Assembly (NCBI GenBank): GCA_030428565.1 | Contig: JAUIDR010000002.1 | Span: 1 to 64,000, forward strand | Source: Alphaproteobacteria bacterium | GTDB lineage: Bacteria; Pseudomonadota; Alphaproteobacteria; UBA7985; JAUIBT01 | Length of the DNA: 64,000 nucleotides | Direction: 5' to 3' | Shown: one piece after another, positions 3,612 through 45,848 of the stretch | Position numbering within the stretch: the stretch's first letter is position 1 | Layout of the letters: each line of letters starts with the position of its first letter | Made by a program: the position numbers and the translations under genes | Notes under the pieces: generated by a model | The model's database searches: none | What the model saw: only the letters and a program-made list of their open reading frames with translations | Told to the model about the DNA's origin: nothing

Positions 3612-3622
3612 CGCTTGTCTCC

Positions 3623-4978: not shown

Positions 4979-4993
4979 TGTTCTTTTCCCCTC

Positions 4994-6040
4994 TTAGCGC
5001 AGTCGCAGTCTTGGATTGAGCAGCACGTAACCCAAATCTGAAATCAATTGGGTCAGCAGAACCACCACGACCGACACAATGGAACAGGCCATAATCATAT
5101 TGAAATCCATATTGGTGGAGGCAACGAACAGCGCTTGCCCGAAGCCCTTATAGGCGAACATGACCTCCACGATCACAACGCCGGTCAGCATCCAGGGGAA
5201 CTGCAGCATAATGACGGTAAAGGGCGCGATCAGAGCATTGCGTAGCGCGTGGCGGCGGATGACTGTGCCGCGTGGCAAGCCCTTCAAGATTGCCGTTCGC
5301 ACGTATTGAGAACTCATGACTTCCGCCATGGACGCGCGGGTCATGCGCGCGATATAGCCGACGCCGTAGACCACCATGGTCAGGACCGGCAAGAACAGAT
5401 CTTCAAAGCTGATCCCGTTGCGCATATTGGCAACCGCCTTGAAATAAAAGCTATCCAAGGTAGCGTACTGGCCGGTCGATATCCAGGTCGGAATATCGGG
5501 TATGTGATTGAAAATATGGTATTTTCTTGAAGCCAGCGCCACCATGAACAAGATGCCAGAAATATATTCTGGTGTCGCCGTCGTCATAATCGATAGCGTC
5601 GATAAGCCCCGGTCACGAAGGGAGCCCTCCCGGACTCCGGCGAATATCCCGATCAGCAGCGCCACCGGCACCATGATCAAAAAGACCCAAAAGGCGAGGA
5701 TGCCGGTTGCATAGAGGCGCTCGTTGATCACCCCCCACTTGTTGCGGCCCGCTTCGGCATCATAGCCAAAGATGTGGCGGCGGAACACGGCGGATTCACC
5801 CCAGTCGCCAACGGCAAAACCAGACAGCCACTCGCCATAACGCACCACGAGCGGTTTCGTTAGCACGTTGTCGGCGACCCAGGAATCCAGGTCTTCGGCA
5901 GGGGTTTGGGGACCAAGCTCATTAATAGCAATCGCACGAAGCGTATTCTGATTGGTATTGATGAGCGTGAAGATCGTCGCGGTGAGCACCAAGATCGTCA
6001 CAAAGGCTAGCAAGATGCGGCGGAATGCAAAGGCGAGCAC
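4994..6040 (-). CDS. Peptide-type ABC transporter permease (DppB-like)
   Basis: 348 residues. The N-terminal transmembrane helix (FAFRRILLAFVTILVLTATIF) and the C-terminal permease domain with coupling loop (MAEVMSSQYVRTAILKGLPRGTVIRRHALRNAL) match the DppB/OppB family. The end is typical (LISDLGYVLLNPRLRLR). It forms the membrane channel with the 3623-4978 protein. It is separated from the upstream binding-protein gene by 93 nt that contain a strong minus-strand terminator hairpin, so it is probably transcribed by partial read-through and made in smaller amounts than the binding protein. Confidence 0.92.
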   Translation of the reverse strand: MLAFAFRRILLAFVTILVLTATIFTLINTNQNTLRAIAINELGPQTPAEDLDSWVADNVLTKPLVVRYGEWLSGFAVGDWGESAVFRRHIFGYDAEAGRNKWGVINERLYATGILAFWVFLIMVPVALLIGIFAGVREGSLRDRGLSTLSIMTTATPEYISGILFMVALASRKYHIFNHIPDIPTWISTGQYATLDSFYFKAVANMRNGISFEDLFLPVLTMVVYGVGYIARMTRASMAEVMSSQYVRTAILKGLPRGTVIRRHALRNALIAPFTVIMLQFPWMLTGVVIVEVMFAYKGFGQALFVASTNMDFNMIMACSIVSVVVVLLTQLISDLGYVLLNPRLRLR

Positions 6041-6081
6041 GGGAATTGACCTCTAGCCGTTGGAATTTGGAAAACGGATGT

Positions 6082-6117
6082 AAAAAAAAGGAGGCAAGGG
6101 CTTGCCCTCGCCTCCTT
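6082..6117 (-). terminator. Intra-operon hairpin terminator after the binding-protein gene
   Basis: On the minus strand the 8-bp stem AAGGAGGC/GCCTCCTT (6117-6110 with 6095-6088) encloses a second AGGGC/GCCCT pairing and is followed by eight T residues (6089-6082). It lies between the binding protein (stop at 6134) and the first permease (start 6040). This is a common way to make more binding protein than permease. Confidence 0.85.
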
Positions 6118-6133
6118 GATGTCGGCGCAAACC

Positions 6134-7774
6134 TTAGGCGTCCAGCCACACTTTCTCAAAGTGGTGCTCGAATGCCTGGTGCATGCGGAAGCCCTGAACC
6201 TCGGGGGTCGAGTGGGCGAACAATGAACGCCAGTACGGCTGAATCATAATCGCGTCGTCCTGCAGCATGGCTTCGATTTTGGCCATGATCGCGCGGCGTG
6301 CTTCCACGTCGGCGGTCGCCTCAGCCTTATCCAACAGGGCGTCGAATTCAGGGTTGTTGTAGGCGGTCTCGTTCCACTTCACGCCAGAGCGGTAAGCCAG
6401 CGACAGCACTTGCGTGCCCAGCGGACGACCGTTCCAGTTGGTTGAAGAGAATGAGTGTGTGGTCCAGTTGGTCCAGAAGGTAGAACCTGGCATCACGATA
6501 CGATTGATGTTCAGGCCCGCTTCTTCCAACTGAGCGCCCACAGCGTCGGTTGTCAGCAGGCGATAGCCCGCGTCCAGCGAGTAGAGGTCAAGCGTGGTTC
6601 CGGCAAAGCCAAGATCCGCGATTTCTTTCTTGGCGGCTTCCATATCGCGAGAGATCGGCGGCAGCTTAGCGTACTCTTCGTGCATAGGACCAACGTGGTG
6701 GTTTTCAGCCACAAGACCCAAGCCGTTGTTACCCAACGCCAGTAGGTCTTCGTTGGATACAGCCTTAACAATCGCTTGACGCAGCGCTTTGTTGTCGTAG
6801 GGCGCAGTATCGGTGTGCATGCGCACAACGATGGTGGCACCGGTAGCAACTTCGTAGCGCTCAAAGCCCAGGTCATCCATAGTGGCGACTTGCTCGGCGT
6901 CGGTCTGGAAGTTCAGGTGAACTTCGCCCGCTTCGAAGGCACCCACTTCGGCGGCAGGGTCTGTACCAAAGTCGATGTAGTCGATGCCGTCCAGGTAGAC
7001 GTCACCGCCCCACCATGCGTGGTCGTCGTTGCGATCCAAAGACGCGCCAACCTCGGGCTCGTAGTTGGTCAGGCGGAATGGGCCAGTGCCCACGCCTTCG
7101 CTGACAGACTTGCCAGGATACTGGATCAGAGCCGGATAGTCTGACATGCCTGCGATGACAGAAATGTCGGGCTTGATCAGGTTCAAGGTCACAGTGCCGG
7201 CTGCGTCGTCGGCGACGATAGAGCCTGCCTTGGCTTTGTTGGTGTCGGGGTCGATCAGCGAGGCGACACGAGCGGCCATTGAGTTGCCGTCAACGTCGGC
7301 TTCGGCCCAACGCTCGATGTTCCAAGCCACCTGAGATGCCGTCAGGGCTTCACCATTGTTCCACATAACCCCTTCGCGAACGCTTAGGACATATTGCGTG
7401 GCATCCGCGTTTGCAGTCCAGCCAGACAGCAGGTGCGGCGTAAAGGTGAAGTCCGGGGTCCAACGAACCAGCGGCTCCAGGAAGTGGCGCGCGACGTTGC
7501 CCAATTCGGACCAGTCAAAGATGCGCGCATCGGTGAAGTTGGCCTTGATGATCATAGAGACCTTCAGACGGCCGCCTTGCTTAGCGTGGCTGGCCGCTTC
7601 TGCTGCAGGGGCAGCCAGACCCAGCATGCCATAGGCTGCGGTCGCGGTCACACCCAGTGCAGTAGCCTGCGCCAGGAATTCGCGGCGGCTCAAACGACCT
7701 TCGCGAGCGGCTTTGGCAAAGCCCTCGACAGAAGGGTGCAGCGGCGCCCCGGTAAGAGTTCTCTTATCTACCAT
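6134..7774 (-). CDS. Peptide-type ABC transporter substrate-binding protein, Tat-exported
   Basis: 546 residues from the ATG at 7774, which has GGAGA about 10 nt upstream; a further in-frame start upstream at 7837 is less likely. A twin-arginine motif SRREFL (residues 29-34) is followed by a hydrophobic segment ending in APAAEA, so the protein is likely exported folded by Tat. The mature part is a family-5 solute-binding protein (SBP_bac_5): LEPLVRWTPDFTFTPHL, GVMWNNGEALTASQVAWNIERW and VGTGPFRLTNYEP. It binds the substrate in the periplasm and hands it to the permeases encoded downstream. First gene of the operon. Ligand not predictable. Confidence 0.93.
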   Translation of the reverse strand: MVDKRTLTGAPLHPSVEGFAKAAREGRLSRREFLAQATALGVTATAAYGMLGLAAPAAEAASHAKQGGRLKVSMIIKANFTDARIFDWSELGNVARHFLEPLVRWTPDFTFTPHLLSGWTANADATQYVLSVREGVMWNNGEALTASQVAWNIERWAEADVDGNSMAARVASLIDPDTNKAKAGSIVADDAAGTVTLNLIKPDISVIAGMSDYPALIQYPGKSVSEGVGTGPFRLTNYEPEVGASLDRNDDHAWWGGDVYLDGIDYIDFGTDPAAEVGAFEAGEVHLNFQTDAEQVATMDDLGFERYEVATGATIVVRMHTDTAPYDNKALRQAIVKAVSNEDLLALGNNGLGLVAENHHVGPMHEEYAKLPPISRDMEAAKKEIADLGFAGTTLDLYSLDAGYRLLTTDAVGAQLEEAGLNINRIVMPGSTFWTNWTTHSFSSTNWNGRPLGTQVLSLAYRSGVKWNETAYNNPEFDALLDKAEATADVEARRAIMAKIEAMLQDDAIMIQPYWRSLFAHSTPEVQGFRMHQAFEHHFEKVWLDA

Positions 7775-8223
7775 TAGAGTATGTCTCCATGTTGCTTTGG
7801 TGGTCGCTACAGGACCAATCTTATACATTTGCGACACCGCACCCCGTCGCCTTCAGGCAAATTGCGTGCGAGTCATGCAAAAGTCGTAACGCGCCCATTA
7901 CCCAAACGCAACCCTCAAAGGCGCACGCGCCAACTTGCCAGGCTCGATTTTGGTTCTAATCTGAGGATAAGCGGTCAAAATAAGACAATTCATTTCGCAA
8001 ATATGGCATTGGGGGCAATTTCCAGGCGTGAACCGCCGCACTCCAAGCCGCGGCCACACAGCCCATCACAAGAGCGTAGAGCTTTCTAACGCCCTGTTGC
8101 GACCACCGCTAAGGCGCATCGGGTCGCCCGATCCAGCCCTCCCGGGTCAGGACGCCAGGCGACCGCTGACAGGGCCGACAGCAGCCAGACCAGAGCGGCC
8201 ACGGCCAGACCAGAGCGGCGATT
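7775..8223. other. Gap between binding-protein gene and GlxA regulator
   Basis: About 450 bases. It should hold the promoter of the transporter operon next to 7774. The far end, directly after the regulator stop, holds a 16-bp direct repeat (8184-8219). I see no gene and no clear operator in the rest. Confidence 0.5.
8184..8219. repeat. 16-bp direct repeat next to the regulator's stop codon
   Basis: GCCAGACCAGAGCGGC is present at 8184-8199 and again at 8204-8219, with a 20-bp period. It ends 4 bp before the stop codon (8224) of the GlxA-type regulator. It is one of several short repeats at gene ends in this window. Confidence 0.85.
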
Positions 8224-9279
8224 TCATTTGCTTTTGGGCAGGGCTGTGCGCTCGGCTTCGGGCCAATCCTTCGGCGGCGTCGACAGCGAGCGTGGCTTGC
8301 GATCCTCGCTTGGGCGAAGGCCAAAGATTTCGCGATACTTGCGGGCAAAGTGCGAGGCCGAATCAAAGCCACAAGCCAGCGATATCTCTGTGATCGGCAT
8401 GGAGGTCTGCCGCAACAGATTGCGCGCGCGTTCCAGGCGAAGCTTGAGATAAAATCGCGTGGGCGCGTCCCCCAGATTGTGCCGGAATAGCCGCTCGAGC
8501 TGGCGCGTAGACAAGCCGATCTGGTCCGCGATGTCGGATTTAGCGACCGGCTCCTCGACGGACTCCTCCATAATCCGCATGGCTTCGATCAAGCTGGGAT
8601 GAACGACCCCAAAGCGATGGCGAATATCGCTGCGTTGCAGCTCGTTCCCTTCGCGTTGGCGGCCATGCACGAATTGATCCGACACATCGGTGGCCAACTC
8701 CGCGCCGTATAGGTGGCGAATGACGTCCAGCATCATATCCATGGCCGCAATGCCGCCGCCCACCGTTACCCGGTTGCGATCCCAGACGAAAATTTCGCTG
8801 CGGTGATCGACGTGCGGATAGGTCTCTTGAAAGGACTCGGCGAACTGCCAATGCACCGTGCAAGCGTGATCATCCAACAATCCTGCTTTGGCCAGGACAA
8901 AGGTCCCGGTTGAAATGGCCCCCAGTGCTTTGCCGCGACGCTCAAAATTGCGCAGGAAATTGAACAGAGCATCGTCGCGAAAATCGCGCGCATCGGTGCC
9001 ACCACAGACCAGCACCATGTCGTACTCGTTCCCACGGCTCTCAGGGATTGATTTGGTCGCCAGCTCCAAGCCAGAGCTTGAATACATCATGCCGCCGACA
9101 TGAGAAATCAACTCCCACTCGAACAGCTTCATATTGGCGATCATGTTGGCGTTGCGCATCGGCTCCATGGCCGCACAAAAGGCCATGAGCGAAAAACTGG
9201 GCACGAGAACAAAGCCGACCCGATAGGGCTTTGATGGGGGCTGCACGGCAAAACTTTCCAAATTTAGGTCTTGGATCAA
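8224..9279 (-). CDS. GlxA-type AraC-family transcriptional regulator
   Basis: 351 residues. The N-terminal two thirds is a DJ-1/PfpI-like (class I glutamine amidotransferase-like) domain (YRVGFVLVPSFSLMAFCAAMEPMRNAN, here residues about 19-45, and GAISTGTFVLAKAGLLDD). The C-terminal third is an AraC double helix-turn-helix (IADQIGLSTRQLERLFR and ITEISLACGFDSASHFARKYREIFG). Relatives such as GbdR and CdhR sense glycine betaine, dimethylglycine or carnitine breakdown. Standing beside MttB and dimethylglycine-dehydrogenase-like genes, it is the obvious candidate activator of this cluster (inference). The start is a TTG at 9279, directly after a stop, since no ATG occurs before the conserved domain. 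Confidence 0.9.
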   Translation of the reverse strand: MIQDLNLESFAVQPPSKPYRVGFVLVPSFSLMAFCAAMEPMRNANMIANMKLFEWELISHVGGMMYSSSGLELATKSIPESRGNEYDMVLVCGGTDARDFRDDALFNFLRNFERRGKALGAISTGTFVLAKAGLLDDHACTVHWQFAESFQETYPHVDHRSEIFVWDRNRVTVGGGIAAMDMMLDVIRHLYGAELATDVSDQFVHGRQREGNELQRSDIRHRFGVVHPSLIEAMRIMEESVEEPVAKSDIADQIGLSTRQLERLFRHNLGDAPTRFYLKLRLERARNLLRQTSMPITEISLACGFDSASHFARKYREIFGLRPSEDRKPRSLSTPPKDWPEAERTALPKSK

Positions 9280-9382
9280 TTATCGAAAAGCAAGCATAGC
9301 GACGCTTACATGTCGATTCTGTTTTGGTGGCAGGCCGCGCTTGGTCTCAATTTAGGCGCAAACAGACGGAAAGCCCAATGCC

Positions 9383-11023
9383 ATGCACAACTTATCTGAA
9401 CTACTGCGCCCTTGCTTCGCCGCCCCCGGTGGCAATGAGTCCAGCGCTGCCGAAATTCCCCGCAGCGAGGTGCCAGCAGCCAGCCCAAGAAGCCGCAGCG
9501 CACGGCGTGGTCGTGGTAAACGCGCGCCAATCGGCCAGACCATCGATCAACTGCCCTTTGGCCAAATCGAACGCCAAATCAAGCCGATCGACCTCATCAG
9601 CGAGGACCATTTGGAGGCCATCCACCAAGCTTCGCTGACCATCATGCAAGAGATCGGGCTGGAATATATGAGCGCGCGGGCACGCGACATCTTCCGCCAA
9701 GCCGGCGCCGATGTGGACGAAGACAGCCAAATGGTCCGCATTCCGCCCGAACTGGTCGCGCAGGCTCTTGCCAGCGCCCCCAACAGCTTTAGCCTGACGC
9801 CGCGCAACCCCGCCAAAAAGCTTAAGATGGGCGGCGGTTTTTGGGTCGCGGGCTCCGTCGCGGGGCCACCGCAGGTTCACGACGCGATCAACGGTCGTCG
9901 TCCGGGCAATTTCGAAGATTTCAAAAAGCTAATCCAGCTCTCGCAATACTTTAACGCCGTCCAGATGTTCGGCTACCACCCGGTCTCGCCGATCGACATT
10001 CCGGCCAACACCCGCCACCTGGACACTTATCACGTCTGCCAAACCGAGGGCGATAAGGCCTATAAGATCTCAGCCATCGGCCGCGAGCGCACCTTGGATG
10101 CCATTGACATGATGGCCATCGCCAAGGGTCTGGACCGGGAGGCCATGAAGCACGAGCCCGCATTGGTCACGACCATCTCAATCAACTCGCCGCGCCGGGT
10201 CGATGAGGCCATGACCGACGGGCTAGAGGTCATGGCGCTGCACAATCAGGTCTGTTCGATCACCCCCTTTACGTTGATGGGCGCTATGACGCCGGTCACG
10301 CTGGCGGGCGCATTGGCCCAACACAATGCAGAGGCCTTGTCAGCAATCGTCTTGACCCAGCTCATCAATCCGGGCGCACCCGTGCTCTATGGCACTTTTA
10401 CCTCAAATGTGGATCTGCGAACCGGAGCCCCGGCCTTTGGGACGCCAGAGAACTCGCGCGCCAACCTGATTGCCGGTCAACTCGCGCGCAAGTACGACCT
10501 GCCCTACCGCTCGTCGAATGCCTGCACCTCCAACCTGGCCGATGACCAGGCGGTCTATGAGTCGATGATGTCGCTTTGGTCCGCGATTGCAGGCGGCGCG
10601 CACTTCATCCACCACGGCGCAGGCTGGCTGGAAGGCGGCCTTAAAGCCTCGTTCGAAAAATTGGTCTTAGACGCCGAGCTGCTGCAAGAACTGGCACTCA
10701 CCTTTGGCCCCTTCACGGCCGAGATCGCCGACCTGGCTGTCGAGGCGATCCGGGGTGTGCCACCGGGCGGCCACTTCTTCGGCGAAGCCCACACCTTAGA
10801 GCGCTACGAGACCGCTTTTTATTCGCCTATGACCTCGGACTGGCGCAGTCACGAGAATTGGGAGGCCGACGGTTCCAAGTCAGCCCGCGAACGCCTGACC
10901 CCTTTGTGGCAACAAGCGCTAGCGGACTTCAAAGCCCCCGCCCTGGCCGACGATCGTCGCGAGGCGCTGGATGCCTTCGTTGCCAAGCGCAAAGAGGAGT
11001 TGGCCGGGCGCGAACCCGCCTAA
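9383..11023 (+). CDS. Trimethylamine methyltransferase (MttB) family protein 1
   Basis: 546 residues, full length for the MttB/COG5598 family. Family-type segments include EDHLEAIHQASLTIMQEIG, ITPFTLMGAMTPVTLAGALAQ, APVLYGTFTSNVDLRTGAPAFGTPE and GVPPGGHFFGEAHTLERY. There is no in-frame amber codon, so this is a non-pyrrolysine member; characterised relatives (MtgB, MtpB) demethylate glycine betaine or proline betaine with a corrinoid protein. No corrinoid protein or RamA is encoded in this window; the next gene is instead an FAD/GcvT dehydrogenase. The Arg/Gly-rich N-terminal stretch (RSARRGRGKRAP) is shared in style with the second copy at 17395. Cytoplasmic. The methylated substrate is unknown. 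Confidence 0.88.
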   Translation: MHNLSELLRPCFAAPGGNESSAAEIPRSEVPAASPRSRSARRGRGKRAPIGQTIDQLPFGQIERQIKPIDLISEDHLEAIHQASLTIMQEIGLEYMSARARDIFRQAGADVDEDSQMVRIPPELVAQALASAPNSFSLTPRNPAKKLKMGGGFWVAGSVAGPPQVHDAINGRRPGNFEDFKKLIQLSQYFNAVQMFGYHPVSPIDIPANTRHLDTYHVCQTEGDKAYKISAIGRERTLDAIDMMAIAKGLDREAMKHEPALVTTISINSPRRVDEAMTDGLEVMALHNQVCSITPFTLMGAMTPVTLAGALAQHNAEALSAIVLTQLINPGAPVLYGTFTSNVDLRTGAPAFGTPENSRANLIAGQLARKYDLPYRSSNACTSNLADDQAVYESMMSLWSAIAGGAHFIHHGAGWLEGGLKASFEKLVLDAELLQELALTFGPFTAEIADLAVEAIRGVPPGGHFFGEAHTLERYETAFYSPMTSDWRSHENWEADGSKSARERLTPLWQQALADFKAPALADDRREALDAFVAKRKEELAGREPA

Positions 11024-11228
11024 GCTCGGCAGCTTTGCTCAGGCAGATCGTGCGACGGGGCCGCAGTAAAGCGGCGGTTGGGTAGAAATGCGATCTGCCA
11101 ATCTGCTCTGCAAAGCGTCGGATTTGGAATAAAACCGGCCGCCTGCCCGGCCTATGCTTATGCCATTCCGATCAAAAGGTGGACACCACCAGACAAACGA
11201 AGCCCGAACTGGGCACAGGGAGAGAGCC

Positions 11229-13652
11229 ATGAAAGATTCGTATCGCGTCGTCATCGTGGGCGGCGGCGTTGTCGGCGCATCCGTCTTGTACCACTTGGCC
11301 AAATTCGGCTGGACCGATTGCGCCATTATCGAGCGGAACGTCCTGACCGCGGGCTCCTCCTGGCACGCTGCGGGCGGCATTCACGCGCTGAACGCGGACC
11401 CCAACATGGCGGCCTTGCAAGCCTACACCATCGACCTCTTGTCAGAGATAGAGGAAGAATCCGGCCACAACATCGGCCTGCACATGACCGGCGGCATCAC
11501 CATCGCCACCACCCCCGACCGCTGGGAGTGGTTGCAAGGCGCCTATCGCACCTTCCAATCCATCGGCATTGACGACTGCCACATCTTGACGCCCGAAGAA
11601 GTCAAAAAGCACTGCCCCGTCATGGACGTTGGCGAGGTCATCGGTGGCATGTGGGCCGACCGCGAGGGTTACGTTGACACCACCGGTACCGTCCACGCCT
11701 ATGCGACCGCTGCCAAGAAGCGCGGCGCCGATGTCATCGAGCACAACCGCGTCTTGGAGCTAAACCAGCGCGCTGATGGCTCGTGGGACGTGGTGACAGA
11801 AAAGGGCACAATCCACGCCGAGCATGTCGTCAACGCGGGTGGCCTATGGGCCAAGCAGGTCGGCCGAATGGTGGGCCTGGAGCTGCCGGTCTCACCTCTA
11901 TCGCACCACTACCTGGTGACCGAAAGCATCCCTGAAATTGCTGCCTTGGATTTCGAAGTCCCCATGATGGTGGATCCCGATGGCTTCACCTATATGCGCC
12001 AGGACCAGCAGGGCATGCTGATCGGCATTTATGAGGTCAATCACCAGCACTGGATGATGGATGGCGCGCCTTGGAACTACGGCATTGAGCTGTTGAACGA
12101 GGACATCGACCGTATCTCTGACGAGCTGGAGCTGACCTTTAAGCGCTATCCGGTTCTGAACGATGTCGGGATTAAGAACTGGGTCAACGGTGCCTTTACC
12201 TTCTCGCCCGACGGCAACCCCTTGGTGGGGCCGGTTCGCGGCCTCAAAAACTACTGGCTGGCCTGCGGTGTCATGGCGGGCTTCCTGCAAGGCGGCGGCG
12301 TCGGCAAGACCCTGGCCGAGTGGATGATCCACGGCGAGACCGAGGCTGACGCCTGGTCCATGGACATTGCGCGCTATGGCGAGTTTGCCTCCAACAAGCA
12401 GTACATTAAAGAGACTACCGGCCAATTCTATTCGCGCCGCTTTGTCATGACCTACCCCAACGAGCAGCTTTGGGCGGGTCGTCCGCTGAAAAAAGCCCCC
12501 GCTTACGAAGGCATGGATCAGGCAGGAGCCAAGTGGGGCGTTTCTTGGGGGCTGGAAGTCCCCTTGATGTTTGGACCTCAGGGCTATGAAGAAAACCCGA
12601 CGATGAAGCGCTCCAACGCCTTCGAGCACGTGGCTGCCGAGTGTAAAGCGGTGCGCGAAGATGTGGGCCTAATCGATATCACGGGCTTCTCGCGCTACGA
12701 GGTGAGCGGCGCCGATGCGGCGGCTTTTCTGGATCACGTCATGGCTTCAAAACTGCCGGGCGCGGGCCGGGCCAAGTTGGCGCCCATGGTGGGGCAAGAC
12801 GGCAAGTTGAAGGGCGATTTGACGGTCTTTAACTGGGGCGACGGCAGCTGGTGGGTCATGGGCTCTTATTACCTGCGTGAATGGCACATGCGTTGGTTCC
12901 ATGACCGCCGCCAGGATCTGGACGCCGCACTAGATGTCTCGATCCGCGATATCTCAGACGCGGTCTGCGGCTTTGGCATTGCGGGGCCGAATGCGCGCAA
13001 GGTCTTGGAAAAGCTGACCCATCAGGACGTGTCGAACGAGGCTTTCAAATTTGCCCAGTGCCGCACGCTGGATGTGGGCCTACTGCGCTGCAAAGTGGGC
13101 CGCCTTTCGGTCATGGGTGAGCTGGGTTACGAGATTAACTGTTCAGCCGCCGAGCATATTACCTTGCGCGAAATGCTGTTGGAAGCGGGCGCTGATCTGG
13201 GTATGCGCGAAGTCGGCTTTTATGCCATGAACTCGCTGCGCTTGGAAAAATCATTCGGCATCTGGTCGGCAGAATTCACCCAGCGCTTTACGCCCGGTGA
13301 AACCGGTATGGATCGCTGGATCGACTGGTCCAAAGACTTCTACGGCAAGGAGGAAGCCGCCAAAGAACGCGAGACGGGTGCCAAAAACCGCCTGGTCACG
13401 CTGGAAGTGGACGCCCCTGAAGCGGATGCCGCGGGCTACGAGCCGGTCTGGGCTGGCGATGCTATGATCGGCTTCACCACGTCGGGCGGCTATGGGCATT
13501 CGCTGGGCAAATCACTGGCCATGGCCATGATTGACGCTCAATATGCTGAACCTGGCACCGAGCTGAAGACCCATATTGTTGGCGTCGAGTGCGCCTGCCG
13601 CGTGCTGGCCCCCAGCCCCTACGATCCCAAGGGCGAACGCCTGCGCGCCTAG
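11229..13652 (+). CDS. FAD-dependent oxidoreductase with GcvT domain (dimethylglycine/sarcosine dehydrogenase-like)
   Basis: 807 residues from the ATG at 11229, preceded by AGGGAGAG; in-frame sequence further upstream is not family-like. The N-terminal half is a DAO-type FAD domain with GGGVVGASVLYHL (residues about 11-23) and SSWHAAG, whose His (about 46) is at the position of covalent flavin attachment in dimethylglycine dehydrogenase. The C-terminal half (from about 430) is a GcvT-type folate-binding domain (GELGYEINCSA, SGGYGHSLGKSLAMAMI). Such enzymes oxidise an N-methyl group and transfer the one-carbon unit to tetrahydrofolate. It follows MttB 1 on the same strand by about 200 nt and ends at a strong terminator, so both may form one demethylation unit. 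Confidence 0.92.
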   Translation: MKDSYRVVIVGGGVVGASVLYHLAKFGWTDCAIIERNVLTAGSSWHAAGGIHALNADPNMAALQAYTIDLLSEIEEESGHNIGLHMTGGITIATTPDRWEWLQGAYRTFQSIGIDDCHILTPEEVKKHCPVMDVGEVIGGMWADREGYVDTTGTVHAYATAAKKRGADVIEHNRVLELNQRADGSWDVVTEKGTIHAEHVVNAGGLWAKQVGRMVGLELPVSPLSHHYLVTESIPEIAALDFEVPMMVDPDGFTYMRQDQQGMLIGIYEVNHQHWMMDGAPWNYGIELLNEDIDRISDELELTFKRYPVLNDVGIKNWVNGAFTFSPDGNPLVGPVRGLKNYWLACGVMAGFLQGGGVGKTLAEWMIHGETEADAWSMDIARYGEFASNKQYIKETTGQFYSRRFVMTYPNEQLWAGRPLKKAPAYEGMDQAGAKWGVSWGLEVPLMFGPQGYEENPTMKRSNAFEHVAAECKAVREDVGLIDITGFSRYEVSGADAAAFLDHVMASKLPGAGRAKLAPMVGQDGKLKGDLTVFNWGDGSWWVMGSYYLREWHMRWFHDRRQDLDAALDVSIRDISDAVCGFGIAGPNARKVLEKLTHQDVSNEAFKFAQCRTLDVGLLRCKVGRLSVMGELGYEINCSAAEHITLREMLLEAGADLGMREVGFYAMNSLRLEKSFGIWSAEFTQRFTPGETGMDRWIDWSKDFYGKEEAAKERETGAKNRLVTLEVDAPEADAAGYEPVWAGDAMIGFTTSGGYGHSLGKSLAMAMIDAQYAEPGTELKTHIVGVECACRVLAPSPYDPKGERLRA

Positions 13653-13680
13653 GCCAGCGAACACCAAGGCAGAAAACAAG

Positions 13681-13713
13681 AAAGCCCCTGGCTCGCACGG
13701 TCAGGGGCTTTTC
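13681..13713. terminator. Bidirectional terminator between convergent genes
   Basis: The stem AAGCCCCTG/CAGGGGCTT (13682-13690 with 13702-13710) has an 11-nt loop. It is followed by TTCTATTT on the plus strand and by TTCTTGTTTT on the minus strand. It separates the FAD/GcvT gene (stop 13652) from the converging DUF3726-like gene (stop 13773). Confidence 0.85.
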
Positions 13714-13772
13714 TATTTCATCTGGCGATCGGGCACCGAAGGCGTGGCCGCCCGTGACCGACACCAACCGCG

Positions 13773-14513
13773 CTAGTCGTTGTCGGTCTCCCCGGCCCCG
13801 GCTTGCTGGCGGGAGGCCTCGGTCGCGGGGACATAGGTGTTGTAAGCCAGTTCTGCCAAGGGGGCGACTGTCGCCTTACGATCAACCGCAATGCCTTGCG
13901 CGTAGGCAGCCTCAACGACGCTCGCCATGGAGCTGTAGCCACCCAGGACCAACAAGCCTTCTGCTTCTTCTTCCGCCATCCAACGGGCGACCAGGCCAGA
14001 GCTGTCGCCCGCCTCGGCGCGCCACTGGTTGCGCTCCGAGACAATCAGGCTCACCCCGCCTGCTTCCAGATACAAAAGGCGTCCTTCGGGCACGGAGCAT
14101 TGCGCCAAGCAAGCCGCCAACAGGCGCTTGCGAGCGGCCAACTTGCTCGCCTCAACCTCGCCCCCGTGAGAAACCCCGTGAGAAACCCCGTGAGAAACCC
14201 CGTGGGAATCCTCGTGGGAAACCTCGCGGGACACCTCGTGGGGCACCCCTTGGGACAGGCTGATTTCCAACTGGTTCTCCAAGCACAGGCGATCACAGAG
14301 CTCCACCGCAAGGTTGGCCAGCTCGGTCAGACCGGCGCCAGTCGCGACATCGGCCAAGGCCTCAAGTACAGACAGACCGCGCAGCTCGCCCCAGACACAG
14401 GCCGCCGACACTAGGCGCGCGTGTGCTAAGGGCAGACCTGCTCCGCGCATGGCTCGCTCCACCAAGGCCGAAATCTCGTTCGCAGAAAAGCGCAACGTTT
14501 GCTCCTGGCTCAT
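13773..14513 (-). CDS. DUF3726-like protein of unknown function with an expanded tetrapeptide repeat
   Basis: 246 residues. The N-terminus (LRFSANEISALVERAMRGAGLP) resembles DUF3726 proteins, which start with a similar NEI..L..KAARGAG segment; this call is tentative. Residues about 86-117 are a run of tetrapeptides (VPHE, VSRE, VSHE, DSHG, then VSHG three times) encoded by eight 12-bp units (14162-14257), so the array keeps the frame. The rest has no motif I recognise, no signal peptide and no membrane helix. Its ATG overlaps the stop of the 561-residue gene (ATGA), which points to translational coupling. It is the last gene of a three-gene operon with that gene and the M19 homologue; the partners suggest a shared role with the MttB proteins. 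Confidence 0.8.
   Translation of the reverse strand: MSQEQTLRFSANEISALVERAMRGAGLPLAHARLVSAACVWGELRGLSVLEALADVATGAGLTELANLAVELCDRLCLENQLEISLSQGVPHEVSREVSHEDSHGVSHGVSHGVSHGGEVEASKLAARKRLLAACLAQCSVPEGRLLYLEAGGVSLIVSERNQWRAEAGDSSGLVARWMAEEEAEGLLVLGGYSSMASVVEAAYAQGIAVDRKATVAPLAELAYNTYVPATEASRQQAGAGETDND
14162..14257 (-). repeat. In-frame 12-bp microsatellite, eight units
   Basis: On the plus strand the units read CCCCGTGAGAAA (three exact copies, 14162-14197), then five diverged copies up to 14257. Because 12 is a multiple of three, copy number can change without breaking the DUF3726-like reading frame. The uniform copies at one end and diverged copies at the other indicate recent expansion. Confidence 0.9.
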
Positions 14514-16195
14514 GATGCTGCCTCCGCTTCAGGTTCCGGCAAAACGCAAAAATACCAAGGCGTGTCAGCCTGCTCAGCCAGTTGATCCGGCAGAGGCGCG
14601 CCCTGATACATGTTGATGCGGGTCCACAAATCAGACTTGGGATCGAACTTCGACGCGCCAAAAAATGCCAGCTTTGCGCGCAGCAAATCAATCGGCAGAC
14701 AATCGTCTGCAATGACATTGCCGCGAATTTCCGCGAAGGGGCGCAAGGCGTTCTGCTGCACGCGAATTGCCGCCGCCCGCAGCGCTGGCTTGTCCGCTAG
14801 GAAGGCGCCGCAGCTTTGATCTTCATAATTTTCAGGAATGGCCGCATAAAGTGCCGACACATCCCGGGCCACGGTCAACGGCATCTCCCACTCGCTGCCT
14901 TCTTCTTGCCATCGAAAGCCAAAGCGCGGTTCCAGCTTTTCTTCGCTGGTATACCAAAACCGTGCTTGATTTTCAGGCAGGTCAAAATCGTATGCCAGCG
15001 CCCAGGTGTAGTACTCATCCAGACAATCAACGAGCCTAGACAGGGGCATAGCGGCATCCAGAATGCAGACCTCTTTAGCGGCCTGCTGATCGTCGCAGAG
15101 CTCATCCACAAGTTCGCCGTGGCCTTCGATCAACAGACTGACGGTCAACTCCTGGCAATCCAGGCTCTTGCCTTGGCACCAGTCTATTACCGCCCCCCAG
15201 CCCTCTGGTTGACCGGTCGCGCACCATTGGGACAGCGCGCCAAGTTCGTCCTCAAGCAGAGCAATGCGGCGCTGATAGTCGGTATCGTCCACGCGCCACT
15301 GCGCGACGTGCCCGCGGACCTGTTCCACCAGCGCGCAGAAATCGCTCCATGACCCGGCATCAGGCTTGCGTTGCTGGCAAACGCGGGTCAGCGCCTGTTC
15401 TTTGCTGTTGAACCAAGCATGCAGCAGGCCGGGATGATTGATCAGATAGGGCGCCATGCCGAGCCCTGTGGCATTGCCAATCCCCAGCGCTTGTTTGCTC
15501 GCAGGGCTAAGCGCTACTGCTTGTGCGCCACCGCGTCGCTTGGCGGCATGCTCGACCAGCACAAAACTGAACAGACGAACAAGGTAGACCGCCAGCATCT
15601 CGACGTGGAAGGAAGCCGCGAATTCAGGTCGGTCTGCGATCTTGCCCCGATCAGCCACGCCAAACTTGCCGCTGCCATAGACCGCCGTCGTGCGCATCAG
15701 GTAGCCAACCTTGCGGATCATGGCCATATCGGGTTGCTGTCCGCGGGCCAGAGCCTCAACGACATGATCGAACATACGCACCGATTTATTGGCGCGTGCG
15801 AGCACCAGTTCACTGGCCTGGCAACGCCCAGCTTCTTGCTTGGGCACATTGGCCGCTAAGCGCGTGATATCCTCGGCACTCGCGCGGCCATCGAACAGGG
15901 TAAAGGTCGCGTCCCAGACCGTGGCAATCACCCGATCAGATCGCTGTTCGGGGCTCAAACGATGGGCGAAGGCTATCAGCGTATAGACGCGTTCGCCCGT
16001 ATCGACACTGATAAGAACATGGCCTTCACCTTGCTCATCCAGTTCGATAACCGGGGCCTCAAAACGCCAGTTCTCGCGCGCCATGCGGCGCAACAAGCTT
16101 GGCATAAACGATAGCCGCGAGGGAAAGGTCGAGCCGATGCGCTTTAGGCCCATGACCGTATCTGGATAACGCCAGGTCTCAGCCACTGCACTCAT
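14510..16195 (-). CDS. Conserved-looking protein of unknown function, 561 residues
   Basis: I do not recognise the family. The protein is soluble, with no signal peptide, no membrane helices and no nucleotide-binding or metal-binding motif. The N-terminal third has TWRYPDTVMGLKRIGSTF and a beta-rich region (GHVLISVDTGERVYTLIAFAHRL); the middle is helical (FHVEMLAVYLVRLFSFVLVEHAAKRRGG, residues about 193-220); the C-terminal part contains YYTWALAYDFDLPENQARFWYTSEEKLEPRFGF in residues about 395-428, rich in aromatic residues. Its start overlaps the stop of the M19 homologue (TAATG) and its stop overlaps the start of the DUF3726-like gene. So it is made together with them, as the middle subunit or enzyme of a three-protein set next to two MttB genes. 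Confidence 0.85.
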   Translation of the reverse strand: MSAVAETWRYPDTVMGLKRIGSTFPSRLSFMPSLLRRMARENWRFEAPVIELDEQGEGHVLISVDTGERVYTLIAFAHRLSPEQRSDRVIATVWDATFTLFDGRASAEDITRLAANVPKQEAGRCQASELVLARANKSVRMFDHVVEALARGQQPDMAMIRKVGYLMRTTAVYGSGKFGVADRGKIADRPEFAASFHVEMLAVYLVRLFSFVLVEHAAKRRGGAQAVALSPASKQALGIGNATGLGMAPYLINHPGLLHAWFNSKEQALTRVCQQRKPDAGSWSDFCALVEQVRGHVAQWRVDDTDYQRRIALLEDELGALSQWCATGQPEGWGAVIDWCQGKSLDCQELTVSLLIEGHGELVDELCDDQQAAKEVCILDAAMPLSRLVDCLDEYYTWALAYDFDLPENQARFWYTSEEKLEPRFGFRWQEEGSEWEMPLTVARDVSALYAAIPENYEDQSCGAFLADKPALRAAAIRVQQNALRPFAEIRGNVIADDCLPIDLLRAKLAFFGASKFDPKSDLWTRINMYQGAPLPDQLAEQADTPWYFCVLPEPEAEAAS

Positions 16196-17172
16196 TATGC
16201 CTCCTTTGGCCCAAATGAGGCCTGGTAGAAGTTCAACCAGTTCTCGCCCATGATCTGTGCAACTTCTTGGTCATTGAAGCCGACCTCTGCCAGACCGCGC
16301 GCCAGGTTGGGAAAATCGCGATTGTCGGTGAACCAATCGGGCTGCGGGGGGAAGCCGGCATCGCTGGCCGAGCCCTCGCCATAGTCGATTTCCTTACTCC
16401 AGCGACCAACGCGCATCCACTCGACTACACTATCGGGCTGGTCCTGGCACAGATCGCTGCCGATGCCAAAGAAGCCGACGCCGTAGCGCTCCGCAAGGTC
16501 GGCGGCCATGCGTGCAAAGCTCTCTAGGCTGCAATCAGACTTGTCTTTTAGATGGTGCGGATACAGCGATAGGCCCAGCATACCGCCGCTCTCTGCCAAG
16601 GCAGCCAGCACCGCGTCCGACTTATTGCGGCGCGCGGCGTGCCAAAAGGCCGGATTGGCGTGGGTAATCGCGATTGGGCGCTCAGAAATCTCGATGGCTT
16701 CCAAGGTGGAGCGTTCAGCCGAGTGGCTCATATCGACCACCAAGCCGACGCGGTTCATCTCTTTGATGACCTGACGGCCCATGCGGGTAATGCCCGGGTC
16801 TTCGGCCTCATAGCAGCCGGTCGCCAACAGCGACTGGTTGTTATAGCTAAGCTGCATGAAGCGCGCGCCCAGCGTATGGCAGATTTCCACCAAGCCGATA
16901 TCATCCTCGATGGGCGAGCAATTTTGGAACCCAAAGATAATCCCCGTGCGCCCATCAGCCTTGGCCCGGCGCAAATCCTCGGCGCTGCGCGCGTGGCAGA
17001 TCAGCTCAGGATATGTTTCAAACCAGCGGTTCCACTTTTCGATATTAAGAACCGTATCGCGGAAATTCTCGTGATAGCAGATCGTGACGTGAACCCCGTC
17101 GAGCCCGCCTTCGCGCATTTGGCGAAAGATTTTCTCTGACCAATTGGCATATTGAAGGCAGTCGATCTTCAT
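16195..17172 (-). CDS. Divergent membrane-dipeptidase (peptidase M19) homologue lacking several metal ligands
   Basis: 325 residues from the ATG at 17172. It is a TIM-barrel M19 family member: VVDMSHSAERSTLEAI and PIAITHANPAFWHAARRN carry the two zinc-binding histidines (H150 and H171, 21 residues apart as in renal dipeptidase H198/H219), and FFGIGSDL carries the conserved Asp (D240). The other metal ligands are missing. The N-terminal HxD of the family is replaced by IDCLQY (residues 3-8), and the bridging Glu of the usual G-x-E-G motif is Gln (GFQN, Q83). Normal binuclear dipeptidase activity is therefore doubtful; a mononuclear or different reaction is possible. First gene of a coupled operon with the 561-residue and DUF3726-like proteins, and divergent from MttB 2. 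Confidence 0.85.
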   Translation of the reverse strand: MKIDCLQYANWSEKIFRQMREGGLDGVHVTICYHENFRDTVLNIEKWNRWFETYPELICHARSAEDLRRAKADGRTGIIFGFQNCSPIEDDIGLVEICHTLGARFMQLSYNNQSLLATGCYEAEDPGITRMGRQVIKEMNRVGLVVDMSHSAERSTLEAIEISERPIAITHANPAFWHAARRNKSDAVLAALAESGGMLGLSLYPHHLKDKSDCSLESFARMAADLAERYGVGFFGIGSDLCQDQPDSVVEWMRVGRWSKEIDYGEGSASDAGFPPQPDWFTDNRDFPNLARGLAEVGFNDQEVAQIMGENWLNFYQASFGPKEA

Positions 17173-17348
17173 GGACAGAACTCCGGTTGCTCGGCGGCTT
17201 GCTCCCCGATGGAGCACCAGGCGGGCCGCCGGTCGATAATTGGTTTTCGCGGTAACGGCGTCAGCCTAAGCCATTTTCTGACCGCAACAGGCCTTCAAAC
17301 CGACCCTTGATGTCGTAGAATGGATTGCGGGGTCGGTTCAATGGCGAC

Positions 17349-17371
17349 ATTGTATACGCATTGTATGCAAT
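17349..17371. promoter_or_regulatory. Candidate operator, 9-bp inverted repeat
   Basis: ATTGTATAC at 17349-17357 and GTATGCAAT at 17363-17371 form an inverted repeat with one mismatch and a 5-nt spacer. The TTGTATAC half site resembles GntR-family operators. It lies 24 nt before the MttB 2 start and between this gene and the divergent M19 operon, so it could control both. Which regulator binds it is unknown. Confidence 0.5.
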
Positions 17372-17394
17372 CCAGCAAGTCAGGGAAAACACCG

Positions 17395-19014
17395 ATGGCC
17401 GTAACTTCTGCACAAGCACCGTCCAGAGCACAGACAAGCTCAGAGCCATCTGACAGCGCACCGACCAACGCGGGCGAGAGCCCCGCGCGCGGTCGTGGTC
17501 GGGCAGCGCGCAGAGCGGCGCGACAAGCCCCAGATACCCGCATGCTGCCCCAGCTCGAACGTCGTTTGCCGCTCGTCGAGCCGCTGACCGCCGAACAGGT
17601 CGCCAAGATCGACGCCGCTTCCATGGATATCCTTGAAGAAGTCGGCGTAGTCTTCCGTGATCCCATCGCCCTTGAGGACTGGCGTAAAGCAGGCGCAGAC
17701 GTGCGTGGGGAGCGGGTTCATTTGGACCGCAATTTGATCCGCGAGCTGATCGCTTCAATACCCAGCACGATCACCTACAACGCTAGAGATCCGCAAAAGT
17801 CCGTTGAGATCGGCGGCAACAAGTCCATGTTTGTGCCCATGACGGGCGCGCCCTACCTGCGCGATCTTGAAGACAAGCGCCGCGCGCCCACCTTGGAAGA
17901 TCTTGCCAACTTCCACAAGCTGGCGCACATGCTGCCTGCCTTGCATTCCAGCGCCCACCACATCGTCGAGCCGATGGATCACCCCGTCAGCCAGCGACAC
18001 CTGCGCATCACTTACTCCAGCATGAAGCACTCGGATAAAATCTTCATGGGCATGACCACCTCGGGCAAAAACGCCGAGGATGTCTTGGACATGTGTGAGA
18101 TCCTGTTCGGTGCCGATTTCATGCGCCATAACGCGGTTGTCACGGGCAACTGTAACGGCAACTCTCCCTTGGTCTGGGATCAGACCATGTTGTCAGCCAT
18201 GCGCGCCTTCAACCGTCGCAATCAGCCGGTCTTGTGCTCGCCCTTCGTCCTGGGCGGCGCCAATACCCCCGCTTCAGCGGTGCCCGCGGTGGCGCAGCTC
18301 AATGCCGAAGCACTATCGGGCCTGGCCTATACACAGGTGGTCAACAAGGGCTGCCCGGCTATTTACGGGCACTACTTGTCGACGGTCTCCATGCGCTCGG
18401 GCGCGCCGATGGCGGGCACACCTGAAATCAGCCTGATGAACTTCATGATTGGCCAGATGGCGCGCCATTACGACGTGCCTTGGCGGACATCTAACACGCT
18501 GGGCGGGGCCAAAACCCTGGACGCGCAAGCGGGCTACGAGAGCGCCACGACCTTGCAGGCCGTGCTGTTGGCCGGCGCTAACTACATCTGGCACTCGGCG
18601 GGATGGAATGAGGCCGGCATGCACTGCTCCATGGCCAAATTCGTCATCGACGCCGAGCAATGCGCCATGGGCTACCGCATGGCCGAAGGCTTGCGCTGGG
18701 ACGACTTCGACGAGGCCCTGGCGGCAGTGCGCGATATTGGGCCTGGCGGGCACTATCTGGGCCACCCGCACACGCAAGCCAACTTCCAACGCGCTTTCTT
18801 CATGCCGACGCTATTCGATAACAATTCGATCGAACAGTGGATGGCAGAGGGCTCAAAGGATGTGACCCAACGCGGCTTGGAAAAAGCACGCCAGCTGCTC
18901 GCAGACTATGAAGAGCCCCGCCTTGACCCTGGCGTCAACGAAGCCCTGTTGGATTATATCGCGCGCCGCGAGCGCGAAATTCCGGCGGTCGACGCCCTGA
19001 ACGAAGAATACTGA
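17395..19014 (+). CDS. Trimethylamine methyltransferase (MttB) family protein 2
   Basis: 539 residues from the ATG at 17395, with AGGGAAA upstream; earlier in-frame ATGs at 17320 and 17365 overlap the putative operator. An Arg-rich N-terminal region (RGRGRAARRAARQAP) is followed by the MttB barrel: EVGVVFRDPIALEDWRKAGAD, PVLCSPFVLGGANTPASAVPA, CPAIYGHYLSTVSMRSGAP and IGPGGHYLGHPHTQANFQ. No amber codon, so it is a non-pyrrolysine member. It is a clear but distant paralogue of the 9383-11023 protein, so it probably acts on a different methylated amine. It is divergent from the M19 operon and followed by a GNAT gene. Confidence 0.88.
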   Translation: MAVTSAQAPSRAQTSSEPSDSAPTNAGESPARGRGRAARRAARQAPDTRMLPQLERRLPLVEPLTAEQVAKIDAASMDILEEVGVVFRDPIALEDWRKAGADVRGERVHLDRNLIRELIASIPSTITYNARDPQKSVEIGGNKSMFVPMTGAPYLRDLEDKRRAPTLEDLANFHKLAHMLPALHSSAHHIVEPMDHPVSQRHLRITYSSMKHSDKIFMGMTTSGKNAEDVLDMCEILFGADFMRHNAVVTGNCNGNSPLVWDQTMLSAMRAFNRRNQPVLCSPFVLGGANTPASAVPAVAQLNAEALSGLAYTQVVNKGCPAIYGHYLSTVSMRSGAPMAGTPEISLMNFMIGQMARHYDVPWRTSNTLGGAKTLDAQAGYESATTLQAVLLAGANYIWHSAGWNEAGMHCSMAKFVIDAEQCAMGYRMAEGLRWDDFDEALAAVRDIGPGGHYLGHPHTQANFQRAFFMPTLFDNNSIEQWMAEGSKDVTQRGLEKARQLLADYEEPRLDPGVNEALLDYIARREREIPAVDALNEEY

Positions 19015-19089
19015 TCTTGGTGCTTGTCGCCGCCCCTCAAAGCATCGCATAGTTGGCGCCGGTTGGAACCGGAAGGATGGGAATGCAGC

Positions 19090-19701
19090 ATGACACCTTG
19101 GCCACCACTCGTTGACCTAGAGGGGCACGGGGTTCGTTTGGAGCCACTGGCACTAAGGCATGCCGACGACCTGGCCGAGGCCAGCGCTGACGGGCAGCTG
19201 CACCGCCTCTGGTACACCAGCGTTCCCGAGCCAGACGGGGTAGCGAGCGAAATCGGCCGCCGCTTGGCGCTGCGCGCCCAGGGCTCCATGCTGCCGTTTG
19301 CGGTCATCGAGACCAAGCCCGGCCCCTTGCAAGGCCGCGCGGTTGGCATGACCACCTATATGAACATTGACGCCCAGTTCCGCCGGGTTGAGATCGGCTC
19401 GACCTGGTATCGGCGCGCCGTGCAGCGCTCTAGCCTTAACACGGCATGCAAACTCTTGCTGATGGGGCATGCCTTTGAGCAGCTCGATTGCCTGGCGGTG
19501 GAGTTTCGCACCCACTTTATGAACCATCAGAGCCGCCGCGCCATAGAACGGCTGGGCGCCAAGCTGGATGGGGTGCTGCGCTCCCACATGCGTATGGCCG
19601 ATGGTAGCCTGCGCGATACAGCGGTCTATTCGGTCATCGCCTGCGAGTGGCCAGCGGTGCGCGCTAACTTGGCCTGGGCGCTAGAAAAGCCGCGCGGCTA
19701 G
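19090..19701 (+). CDS. GNAT acetyltransferase (RimJ/RimL-like)
   Basis: 203 residues from the ATG at 19090 (GGGAA about 7 nt upstream). It has the layout of RimJ/RimL-type N-acetyltransferases: GVRLEPLALRHADDLAEAS at the start, RVEIGSTWYRRAVQRSSLNTACKLLLMGHAFEQLD at residues about 98-133 and VEFRTHFMNHQSRRAIERLGAKLDGVLRSHMRM near the end, where Asn and Arg contact acetyl-CoA in relatives. Cytosolic. It follows MttB 2 by 75 nt on the same strand, so the two are probably co-transcribed. The acceptor may be a protein N-terminus or a small amine; the context favours the latter only weakly. Confidence 0.85.
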   Translation: MTPWPPLVDLEGHGVRLEPLALRHADDLAEASADGQLHRLWYTSVPEPDGVASEIGRRLALRAQGSMLPFAVIETKPGPLQGRAVGMTTYMNIDAQFRRVEIGSTWYRRAVQRSSLNTACKLLLMGHAFEQLDCLAVEFRTHFMNHQSRRAIERLGAKLDGVLRSHMRMADGSLRDTAVYSVIACEWPAVRANLAWALEKPRG

Positions 19702-22389: not shown

Positions 22390-22730
22390 GGCATCCCCCT
22401 TGGGCAGCCAGTCCGAAAAACAGCGGCCCGGCCCAGCTTTGATTCTTGCAGCTTGGCGCTTGGCTCGCCCGCATGACTTTCCCTTTATCCTTGCCGCCCC
22501 CGGTTTGGGCCGCCCCCAGTTTGGGCCCCCCCCCCGGTTTGGGCCGCCGCTCTGGCGTCTTCTTTGCTAGCCGTCCACGTGAACGGCGCATTGACCTGTA
22601 ACAAGCTGGAGATATGGGACGGATTTGGTCCTATGTCAAAGCCCTAAGCAGCGCGCCTTGTCTCGCATGTTCGGCTTTCGCTCGTGACGCTTCTGCCGTC
22701 TAGGCTACCGCTCGTTAGGCCTTTGATTTG
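22390..22730. other. Gap upstream of the FbpB-like gene
   Basis: About 340 bases between the MerR stop and the permease start. It contains the GC-rich repeat at 22493-22556 and probably the permease promoter. No gene seen. Confidence 0.55.
22493..22556. repeat. GC-rich 16-18-bp tandem repeat
   Basis: The unit GCCGCCCCCGGTTTGG occurs at 22493-22508, with one change at 22509-22524, a longer C-rich copy at 22525-22542 and a degenerate fourth copy. It lies in the gap downstream of the MerR gene and includes a run of about ten C residues. Confidence 0.8.
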
Positions 22731-23129
22731 CTAGGCCGCCGCGACCGGCTTACCCATGCGAAGCCGATCCATGACCTGCTGCTTGATGTCTTGCAGCTCG
22801 CCCAGGGTCTCTTCCAAATCGGCCTGCTGTTGTTCTAAGCGCTTAATGCGATCCTCGACACGCGCCAGCAATAGGCGGTTCTGCTCGTACTGGCCGTCAT
22901 CCAAAGCATAAAGCTCCAGATATTCCGCAATTTCCTGTAGGCTAAACCCCATGCGTTTGGCCCGTAGGATGATGATGAGCCGGGCCCGGTCGCGATAAGT
23001 ATATATGCGCGCACCGTTGATGCGCTGAGGCGAGAGCAGCCCCTTGTCCTCATAGAGGCGAATGGCCCGATGGGTCAAAGAGAACTCATCCGCCAGATCG
23101 GAAATTCCATAGAGCTTTTCTTTATTCAT
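22731..23129 (-). CDS. MerR-family transcriptional regulator
   Basis: 132 residues from the ATG at 23129, which overlaps the fadD stop (ATGAATAA), so it is translationally coupled to fadD. N-terminal winged helix YGISDLADEFSLTHRAIRLYEDKGLL (helix-turn-helix at residues about 7-25), then RLIIILRAKRMGFSLQEIAEYLELY and a dimerising coiled coil (RVEDRIKRLEQQQADLEETLGELQ). It lacks a metal-binding Cys cluster, like LiuR-type MerR regulators that control fatty acid and branched-chain amino acid breakdown in proteobacteria. It very likely controls its own operon through the palindrome at 25033-25050 (inference). Confidence 0.9.
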   Translation of the reverse strand: MNKEKLYGISDLADEFSLTHRAIRLYEDKGLLSPQRINGARIYTYRDRARLIIILRAKRMGFSLQEIAEYLELYALDDGQYEQNRLLLARVEDRIKRLEQQQADLEETLGELQDIKQQVMDRLRMGKPVAAA

Positions 23130-24930: not shown

Positions 24931-25032
24931 GACGCTGCGCTCCTGTTAGAGGGCTGCTCTGTCGGCCAGCGAGGCGCTGGCTTCAGTGCTTGTTTTTGGT
25001 CTTGGCAAAATTTTAGATTTGCTCGTCAACAA

Positions 25033-25050
25033 GCTTACCTTAAGGTAAGC
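25033..25050. promoter_or_regulatory. Perfect 18-bp palindrome, candidate MerR operator
   Basis: GCTTACCTTAAGGTAAGC is identical to its own reverse complement. It lies 103 nt upstream of the fadD start. MerR regulators bind such palindromes inside the promoter, and the coupled downstream gene encodes one. Confidence 0.75.
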
Positions 25051-25090
25051 CTGCTACAAAGCGCAAGAATAATGCACCTTACGGGTAATC

Positions 25091-25110
25091 ACATTTCCTT
25101 AATGAAATGT
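25091..25110. promoter_or_regulatory. 7-bp inverted repeat, possible second operator
   Basis: ACATTTC and GAAATGT flank a 6-nt spacer. It lies between the 18-bp palindrome and the divergent monooxygenase-like gene. It could be an operator or a weak hairpin; no binding protein can be assigned. Confidence 0.4.
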
Positions 25111-25126
25111 TGCGACTTAACGCGAA

Positions 25127-25192
25127 GGGATGGCCCAGGGATGCCCCCTGGGATGCCCCTGGGACGCCCCTGGGACGCCCCGGGGGGCGCCA
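25127..25192. repeat. GC-rich 11-12-bp tandem repeat
   Basis: Five to six imperfect copies of GGGATGCCCCT / GGGACGCCCCT follow each other. It sits in the divergent gap between fadD and the monooxygenase-like gene. Some copies can pair with each other (GGGGC/GCCCC). Confidence 0.85.
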
Positions 25193-45843: not shown

Positions 45844-45848
45844 CTAGG
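45731..45848. repeat. 18-bp tandem repeat, seven units, running into the cdsA stop
   Basis: The unit CTGTCCCAGGCCGCTGTT starts at 45731, 45749, 45767, 45785, 45803 and 45821, with one substitution in two copies. A seventh, partial copy at 45839 reads CTGTCCTAGGCCGC and contains the cdsA stop codon (45844-45846). The array may have grown from the gene's own 3' end. Confidence 0.92.

Follow-up and report, generated by a model that had tools for sequence, protein, structure and literature searches.

A two-MttB locus with a conserved, uncharacterised operon as a probable accessory module of aerobic cobalamin-dependent betaine demethylation

The window, i.e., the whole stretch of 64,000 nucleotides analysed here, lies on contig C48 of a 3.5-Mb genome that is 99% complete; the families and relatives found indicate that its host is probably an alphaproteobacterium. 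We focus on the segment 8224-19701, in which two genes of the MttB methyltransferase superfamily (MttB1 and MttB2) enclose a dimethylglycine-dehydrogenase-like FAD/GcvT gene and three overlapping minus-strand genes (M19, U561 and DUF3726, called the trio in the following). The open reading frames and families that an earlier reading of the letters alone (the original prediction) had listed for this segment match our gene calls and profile searches. The locus consists of:

1485-7837, minus strand: peptide/opine-type ATP-binding cassette importer with ATPases, two permeases and an SBP_bac_5 binding protein (family matches)
8224-9279, minus strand: GlxA-type AraC regulator (DJ-1/PfpI plus HTH_18; PF12833, PF01965), related to GbdR
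9383-11023, plus strand: MttB1, non-pyrrolysine MttB-superfamily methyltransferase (PF06253, 619 bits)
11232-13652, plus strand: FAD/GcvT enzyme, dimethylglycine-dehydrogenase-like (DAO+FAO_M+GCV_T+GCV_T_C)
13773-14513, minus strand: DUF3726 protein, third trio gene (PF12525, 24.9 bits, cut-off 22.1)
14162-14255, no strand: 12-bp tandem repeat of 7.8 copies within the DUF3726 gene, encoding SHGV repeats (repeat scan and alignment)
14510-16195, minus strand: U561, 561-residue protein without any family, second trio gene (no Pfam, NCBIfam or PDB match)
16195-17217, minus strand: M19 membrane-dipeptidase-family amidohydrolase, first trio gene (PF01244)
17320-19014, plus strand: MttB2, non-pyrrolysine MttB-superfamily methyltransferase, divergent from the trio (PF06253, 717 bits)
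19024-19701, plus strand: GNAT acetyltransferase downstream of MttB2 (family match; same order in the congeneric genome L038)

Neither MttB gene has an in-frame stop, and both are therefore of the non-pyrrolysine type; each carries the full-length PF06253 domain that characterizes the non-pyrrolysine MttB/MtgB superfamily. As they are only 34% identical, they are paralogues from different subgroups. The nearest relatives of MttB1 are the MttBs of loci L083 and L112 (52-53%), where the MttB1 relative is followed by an FAD/GcvT gene and then by the trio, all on one strand. Orthologues of MttB2 at 74-77% identity adjoin the trio in SUP05/Thioglobus loci (L052, L053, L056, L090).

The domains DAO, FAO_M, GCV_T and GCV_T_C of the FAD/GcvT enzyme follow the order found in dimethylglycine dehydrogenase (DMGDH), and its best solved relatives are the mammalian DMGDH structures 4pab and 5l46 (~562 bits). 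It shares the DAO+FAO_M+GcvT architecture and full-length homology with mammalian DMGDH and Arthrobacter dimethylglycine oxidase; unlike these, it is one of nine full-length DMGDH-like paralogues in its genome (on C48, C73, C89, C72, C88, C77, C20, C53 and C12), and its dimethylamino substrate is putative. From sequence, we predict that it performs an N-demethylation yielding methylene-tetrahydrofolate. In the simplest reading, two methyl groups of a trimethylammonium compound would be removed in succession, the first by MttB1 and the second by the DMGDH-like enzyme, and both would end up on folate. The nine FAD/GcvT paralogues mark the host as a specialist for N-methyl compounds; its genome also encodes SoxA-like proteins and eight MttBs. 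On C88, an MttB gene and an FAD/GcvT DMGDH-like gene are adjacent. GbdR is a regulator responding to glycine betaine and dimethylglycine. The regulator in the window reached 331 bits against the GbdR model NF052371, under the equivalog cut-off of 480, and is GbdR-like rather than classed as GbdR.

The window encodes neither a corrinoid protein nor RamA, as the original prediction had noted, and the genome-wide matches sit on contigs C35 and C22. Thus, the absence of a corrinoid protein is true for the window and misleading at the scale of the genome. A 233-residue protein on C35 (9019-9720, minus strand) is the only one in the genome with both PF02607 and PF02310, i.e., an MtgC-type corrinoid protein; it carries the DxHxxG motif (GDIHDIGKN) as well as VGGAPL. 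It adjoins a DUF1638 gene, and a formate-tetrahydrofolate ligase gene is located there in divergent orientation. On C22, consecutive genes encode an AraC-type regulator, a methylenetetrahydrofolate reductase (MetF), a pterin-binding PF00809 methyltransferase (MtgD) and RamA (682 residues). A sarcosine-oxidase-alpha-like gene stands convergently beside RamA (C22, locus L015, 10796-13774), so that this cluster joins methyl transfer with sarcosine-type oxidation. On C58, a further MttB gene is divergent from an adjoining PF02574 S-methyltransferase (MtgE-like) gene. The genome-wide domain search yielded no MetH-type B12 domain (a single PF02607 protein was found), and the only other B12-binding domain match above cut-off was methylmalonyl-CoA mutase. 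Consequently, the elements that define the aerobic MtgBCD(E) system were found in this genome: MtgC, MtgD with a MetF paralogue, RamA with DUF1638, a separate MtgE module and no MetH.

To what extent MttB and MtgC go together was surveyed in 387 alphaproteobacterial genomes, the counts being uncorrected for shared ancestry. MttB was present in 85 genomes; 80 of these also encoded a close MtgC orthologue (defined as E < 1e-90 and identity of at least 72%), and a strong RamA match was likewise found in 80. A close MtgC orthologue without MttB occurred in none of the 387 genomes. Four MttB genomes had neither MtgC nor RamA, and their best MttB matches were weak (E 5e-20, 9e-65, 2e-76 and 9e-78), probably representing fragments or divergent proteins.

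The cited passages of Mausz et al. (2025, PMC12478193) describe an aerobic MtgBCD(E) system, a glycine betaine methyltransferase with a split methionine synthase, in Ruegeria pomeroyi and Phaeobacter. According to them, growth on glycine betaine and methionine synthesis depend genetically on MtgC and MtgD, RamA and DUF1638 are of higher abundance on N-osmolytes, and such genomes hold up to seven MttB genes, for which varied methylated substrates were suggested. The host shares with this system PF06253 MttBs, a small MtgC, a pterin-binding MtgD, RamA, DUF1638, MetF2, an MtgE-like module and the lack of a MetH-type B12 domain, and in both several MttB paralogues face one common MtgC. The difference lies in the location of MttB1 and MttB2, away from mtgC, mtgD and ramA and beside the trio, of which these passages make no mention. 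An MttB superfamily with one common corrinoid protein is, in the same source, also a feature of Desulfitobacterium MtgABC and Eubacterium MtcB/MtpB; these systems are, however, anaerobic, and the aerobic proteobacterial MtgC is phylogenetically distinct.

The M19-U561-DUF3726 trio is a true conserved and widespread operon, its genes overlapping by 1-4 bases in the window. Relatives of U561 occur in 57 of the 387 class genomes, and in a genome collection at least 582 of at least 590 candidate stretches encode one; the lineages include Rhodobacteraceae and streamlined alphaproteobacteria of 1.2-1.6 Mb. Of the 94 trio loci read (80 of them from the genome collection), 82 yielded DUF3726 and 77 yielded M19; contig ends account for part of the losses. 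Among the 80 loci from the genome collection, neighbours were an aldehyde dehydrogenase (40 loci), a LysR regulator (28), a BCCT transporter (23), an Ldh_2 enzyme (22) and OpuAC (7). These families concentrate at the trio: within 5 kb as compared to 5-10 kb we counted 25 vs 2 BCCT genes, 40 vs 6 aldehyde dehydrogenase genes and 28 vs 0 LysR genes, and OpuAC and Ldh_2 were likewise commoner in the inner range. The neighbouring aldehyde dehydrogenase scores best, though below cut-off, with models for alpha-ketoglutaric-semialdehyde dehydrogenase, and the neighbouring Ldh_2 protein is closest to delta1-piperideine-2-carboxylate reductase; both give a hint of a cyclic or C5 skeleton. Only one locus, L082, showed a binding protein and permeases of the type of the window's importer in the vicinity of a trio relative. 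For the SUP05 loci, a hydroxyproline-betaine epimerase was considered and dismissed: their neighbour from the enolase superfamily is more similar to sugar-acid dehydratases and mandelate racemases. The recurrent open reading frame clusters c10 and c21, lacking a Pfam match, look like antisense shadow frames.

Concerning the proteins themselves, U561 had no sequence relative in Pfam, NCBIfam or PDB. Its structure model (pLDDT 88, pTM 0.90) matched no PDB fold at E 0.001. An assignment of U561 as DUF5943-like was rejected, since the DgcAB cluster of P. putida carries, directly after M19, a gene for a protein of 176 residues. For DUF3726, a family member from L073 was modelled (pLDDT 92, pTM 0.87) and matched YiaK/Ldh_2 structures (Foldseek E 2.5e-4, probability 1.00) with a TMq of only 0.58, being shorter than Ldh_2 enzymes. 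From this model, DUF3726 is predicted to be a remnant of the Ldh_2 (type-2 malate/lactate dehydrogenase) fold. A literature search on DUF3726 found no paper. The SHGV-type repeat stretch is absent from the aligned DUF3726 relatives. The closest solved relative of M19 is the amidohydrolase 2i5g. An M19 of the same family (35% identity) also heads a dimethylglycine demethylation cluster of Pseudomonas (M19, 176-residue protein, DgcA, DgcB; locus L146 of a P. putida genome), to which the names DgcA and DgcB and PA5396-PA5399 apply. This cluster resembles the trio in its first gene, whereas its second gene is not U561 and no DUF3726 was seen there.

In two gammaproteobacterial loci, the trio and the methyl transfer genes meet directly. 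In L114, a metagenome-assembled genome, the stretch 572-19625 encodes on one strand a BCCT-cluster gene, a DAO oxidase, a SoxA-like subunit, a second BCCT-cluster gene, M19, U561, DUF3726, FolD, MttB, MtgC, DUF1638, MtgD and RamA, apparently a complete betaine operon. L105 has a same-strand trio upstream of MttB-MtgC-DUF1638-MtgD-RamA, ending as in L114. The MtgC proteins of both loci are 75-76% identical to that of the host. As the trio coexists with MtgC there, it cannot replace it, and the idea that it supplies the missing methyl carrier fails.

Based on the genes and families observed at the locus, MtgC, MtgD, RamA and MetF2 in the genome, the class-wide coupling of MttB and MtgC and the conserved neighbourhoods, we consider it highly probable that the locus serves MtgBCD(E), the known aerobic system for cobalamin-dependent betaine demethylation, as an accessory substrate module. 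MttB1 and MttB2 are most plausibly additional methyltransferases, each with a substrate specificity of its own, that deliver to the common MtgC. Each would take a methyl group from its own quaternary amine and pass it to the single genome-wide MtgC on C35, which RamA and DUF1638 would hold in the reduced state and which would have to accept methyl groups from both enzymes. MtgD on C22 would then transfer the methyl group to tetrahydrofolate, with oxidation by MetF2. MttB1 would yield a dimethylamino acid, for example dimethylglycine, from which the DMGDH-like FAD/folate enzyme may remove another methyl group; the probable ligand of the GbdR-like regulator is the substrate or this dimethylated product. 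The trio, for its part, is inferred to process the backbone of a betaine or an N-methylated amino acid, here most likely that of the substrate demethylated by MttB2, rather than to carry methyl groups. More tentatively, since this is possible without being the likelier outcome, the trio could constitute an undescribed enzyme system, with a U561 fold unlike solved ones, that converts a marine betaine, with MttB2 as its dedicated partner in part of the alpha- and gammaproteobacteria and other demethylases in other lineages.

Three observations weigh against the accessory-module reading. The genes mtgC, mtgD and ramA are not linked on the chromosome to MttB1 and MttB2. MttB genes are not statistically enriched near the trio (6 in inner vs 2 in outer flanks). 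Of the host's MttBs, the C58 copy comes closest to the mtg-operon MttB of L105 and L114 (65%), hence this copy, and not those in the window, is most likely the glycine betaine MtgB; the window MttBs may then have unusual substrates or even partners.

Among the alternatives, the trio might belong to an operon for homarine (N-methylpicolinate) or another cyclic betaine, with M19 as a ring amidohydrolase and MttB, DMGDH or Sox-like enzymes handling the N-methyl group in some lineages. The typical neighbours LysR, semialdehyde-type aldehyde dehydrogenase (below cut-offs), BCCT/OpuAC and piperideine-carboxylate-reductase-like Ldh_2 would suit such a pathway, as would the occurrence in Rhodobacteraceae and streamlined genomes and the sarcosine-oxidase/N-methylglutamate-dehydrogenase-like genes beside the trio in L114; the homarine pathway published in 2026 uses Mgd, as cited in PMC13390433. 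However, the window locus lacks aldehyde dehydrogenase, LysR and BCCT, and MttB is not expected to act on an aromatic N-methyl group. We regard this explanation as unlikely, homarine-type betaines being a lead only.

Somewhat less likely still, the trio and the MttB/DMGDH genes could be functionally unrelated neighbours that were joined in this genus. The original prediction had named a trio mostly found without MttB as evidence against itself, and this is largely what the loci show: MttB is nearby in only 10 of the 94 trio loci, and 16 of the 57 U561 genomes, from 11 families, lack any MttB. In the congener G002, moreover, the trio lies near a different MttB (28% identity), an aldehyde dehydrogenase and a LysR gene. 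Nevertheless, the link stands in some lineages (L105, L114, L083, L112, L052, L053, L056, L090). Orthologous MttB2 genes flank the trio in distant gammaproteobacteria, in L083 and L112 the trio follows relatives of MttB1 and DMGDH on the same strand, and U561 and MttB co-occur in 41 of the 57 genomes (odds ratio 17, uncorrected for lineage), all of which argues against functionally unrelated neighbours.

Finally, the original prediction's idea that MttB works without a corrinoid protein, with folate enzymes or a novel trio-encoded carrier receiving the methyl group directly, fits the 64-kb window with its FAD/GcvT folate enzyme adjacent to MttB1 and the entirely uncharacterised U561, but is very improbable given MtgC, MtgD, RamA, MetF and DUF1638 in the same genome, the coupling in 80 of 85 genomes with no reverse exception, and a trio that occurs in 16 genomes without MttB and with MtgC in L105 and L114. 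That prediction had named a corrinoid protein and an activator, encoded elsewhere in the genome and co-regulated with these MttB genes, as evidence to the contrary; as far as gene content goes, both are there. Its proposal of a demethylation route in an aerobic lineage that ends on folate enzymes is supported.

Regarding the remaining details of the window, M19 probably starts at the ATG near 17172 (MKIDCLQ...) rather than at the GTG at 17217, so that ~147 bp would separate it from MttB2. Compared with L038, conservation in this intergenic region is confined to the immediate surroundings of the MttB2 start, and a search for an operator there gave nothing usable. Genes for S-adenosylhomocysteine hydrolase and S-adenosylmethionine synthetase lie in tandem at 51770-54319, and an MnmC-like fusion of a PF05430 methyltransferase and a DAO oxidase at 62153-63964 resembles an ordinary tRNA modification enzyme. 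Short G+C-rich tandem repeats are located at 45554-45852 (14-18 bp) and 22493-25185 (11-16 bp).

These results remove a supposed exception: MttB in Alphaproteobacteria still depends on corrinoid chemistry, and finding it in a genome of this class in practice indicates MtgC and RamA as well (80 of 85 genomes). Read as an accessory module, the locus adds substrate range to a known system, and the trio is its uncharacterised conserved part. With a protein that has neither a family nor a known fold, standing beside betaine transporters in marine bacteria, the trio is a target for an unassigned step in the cycling of methylated nitrogen compounds.

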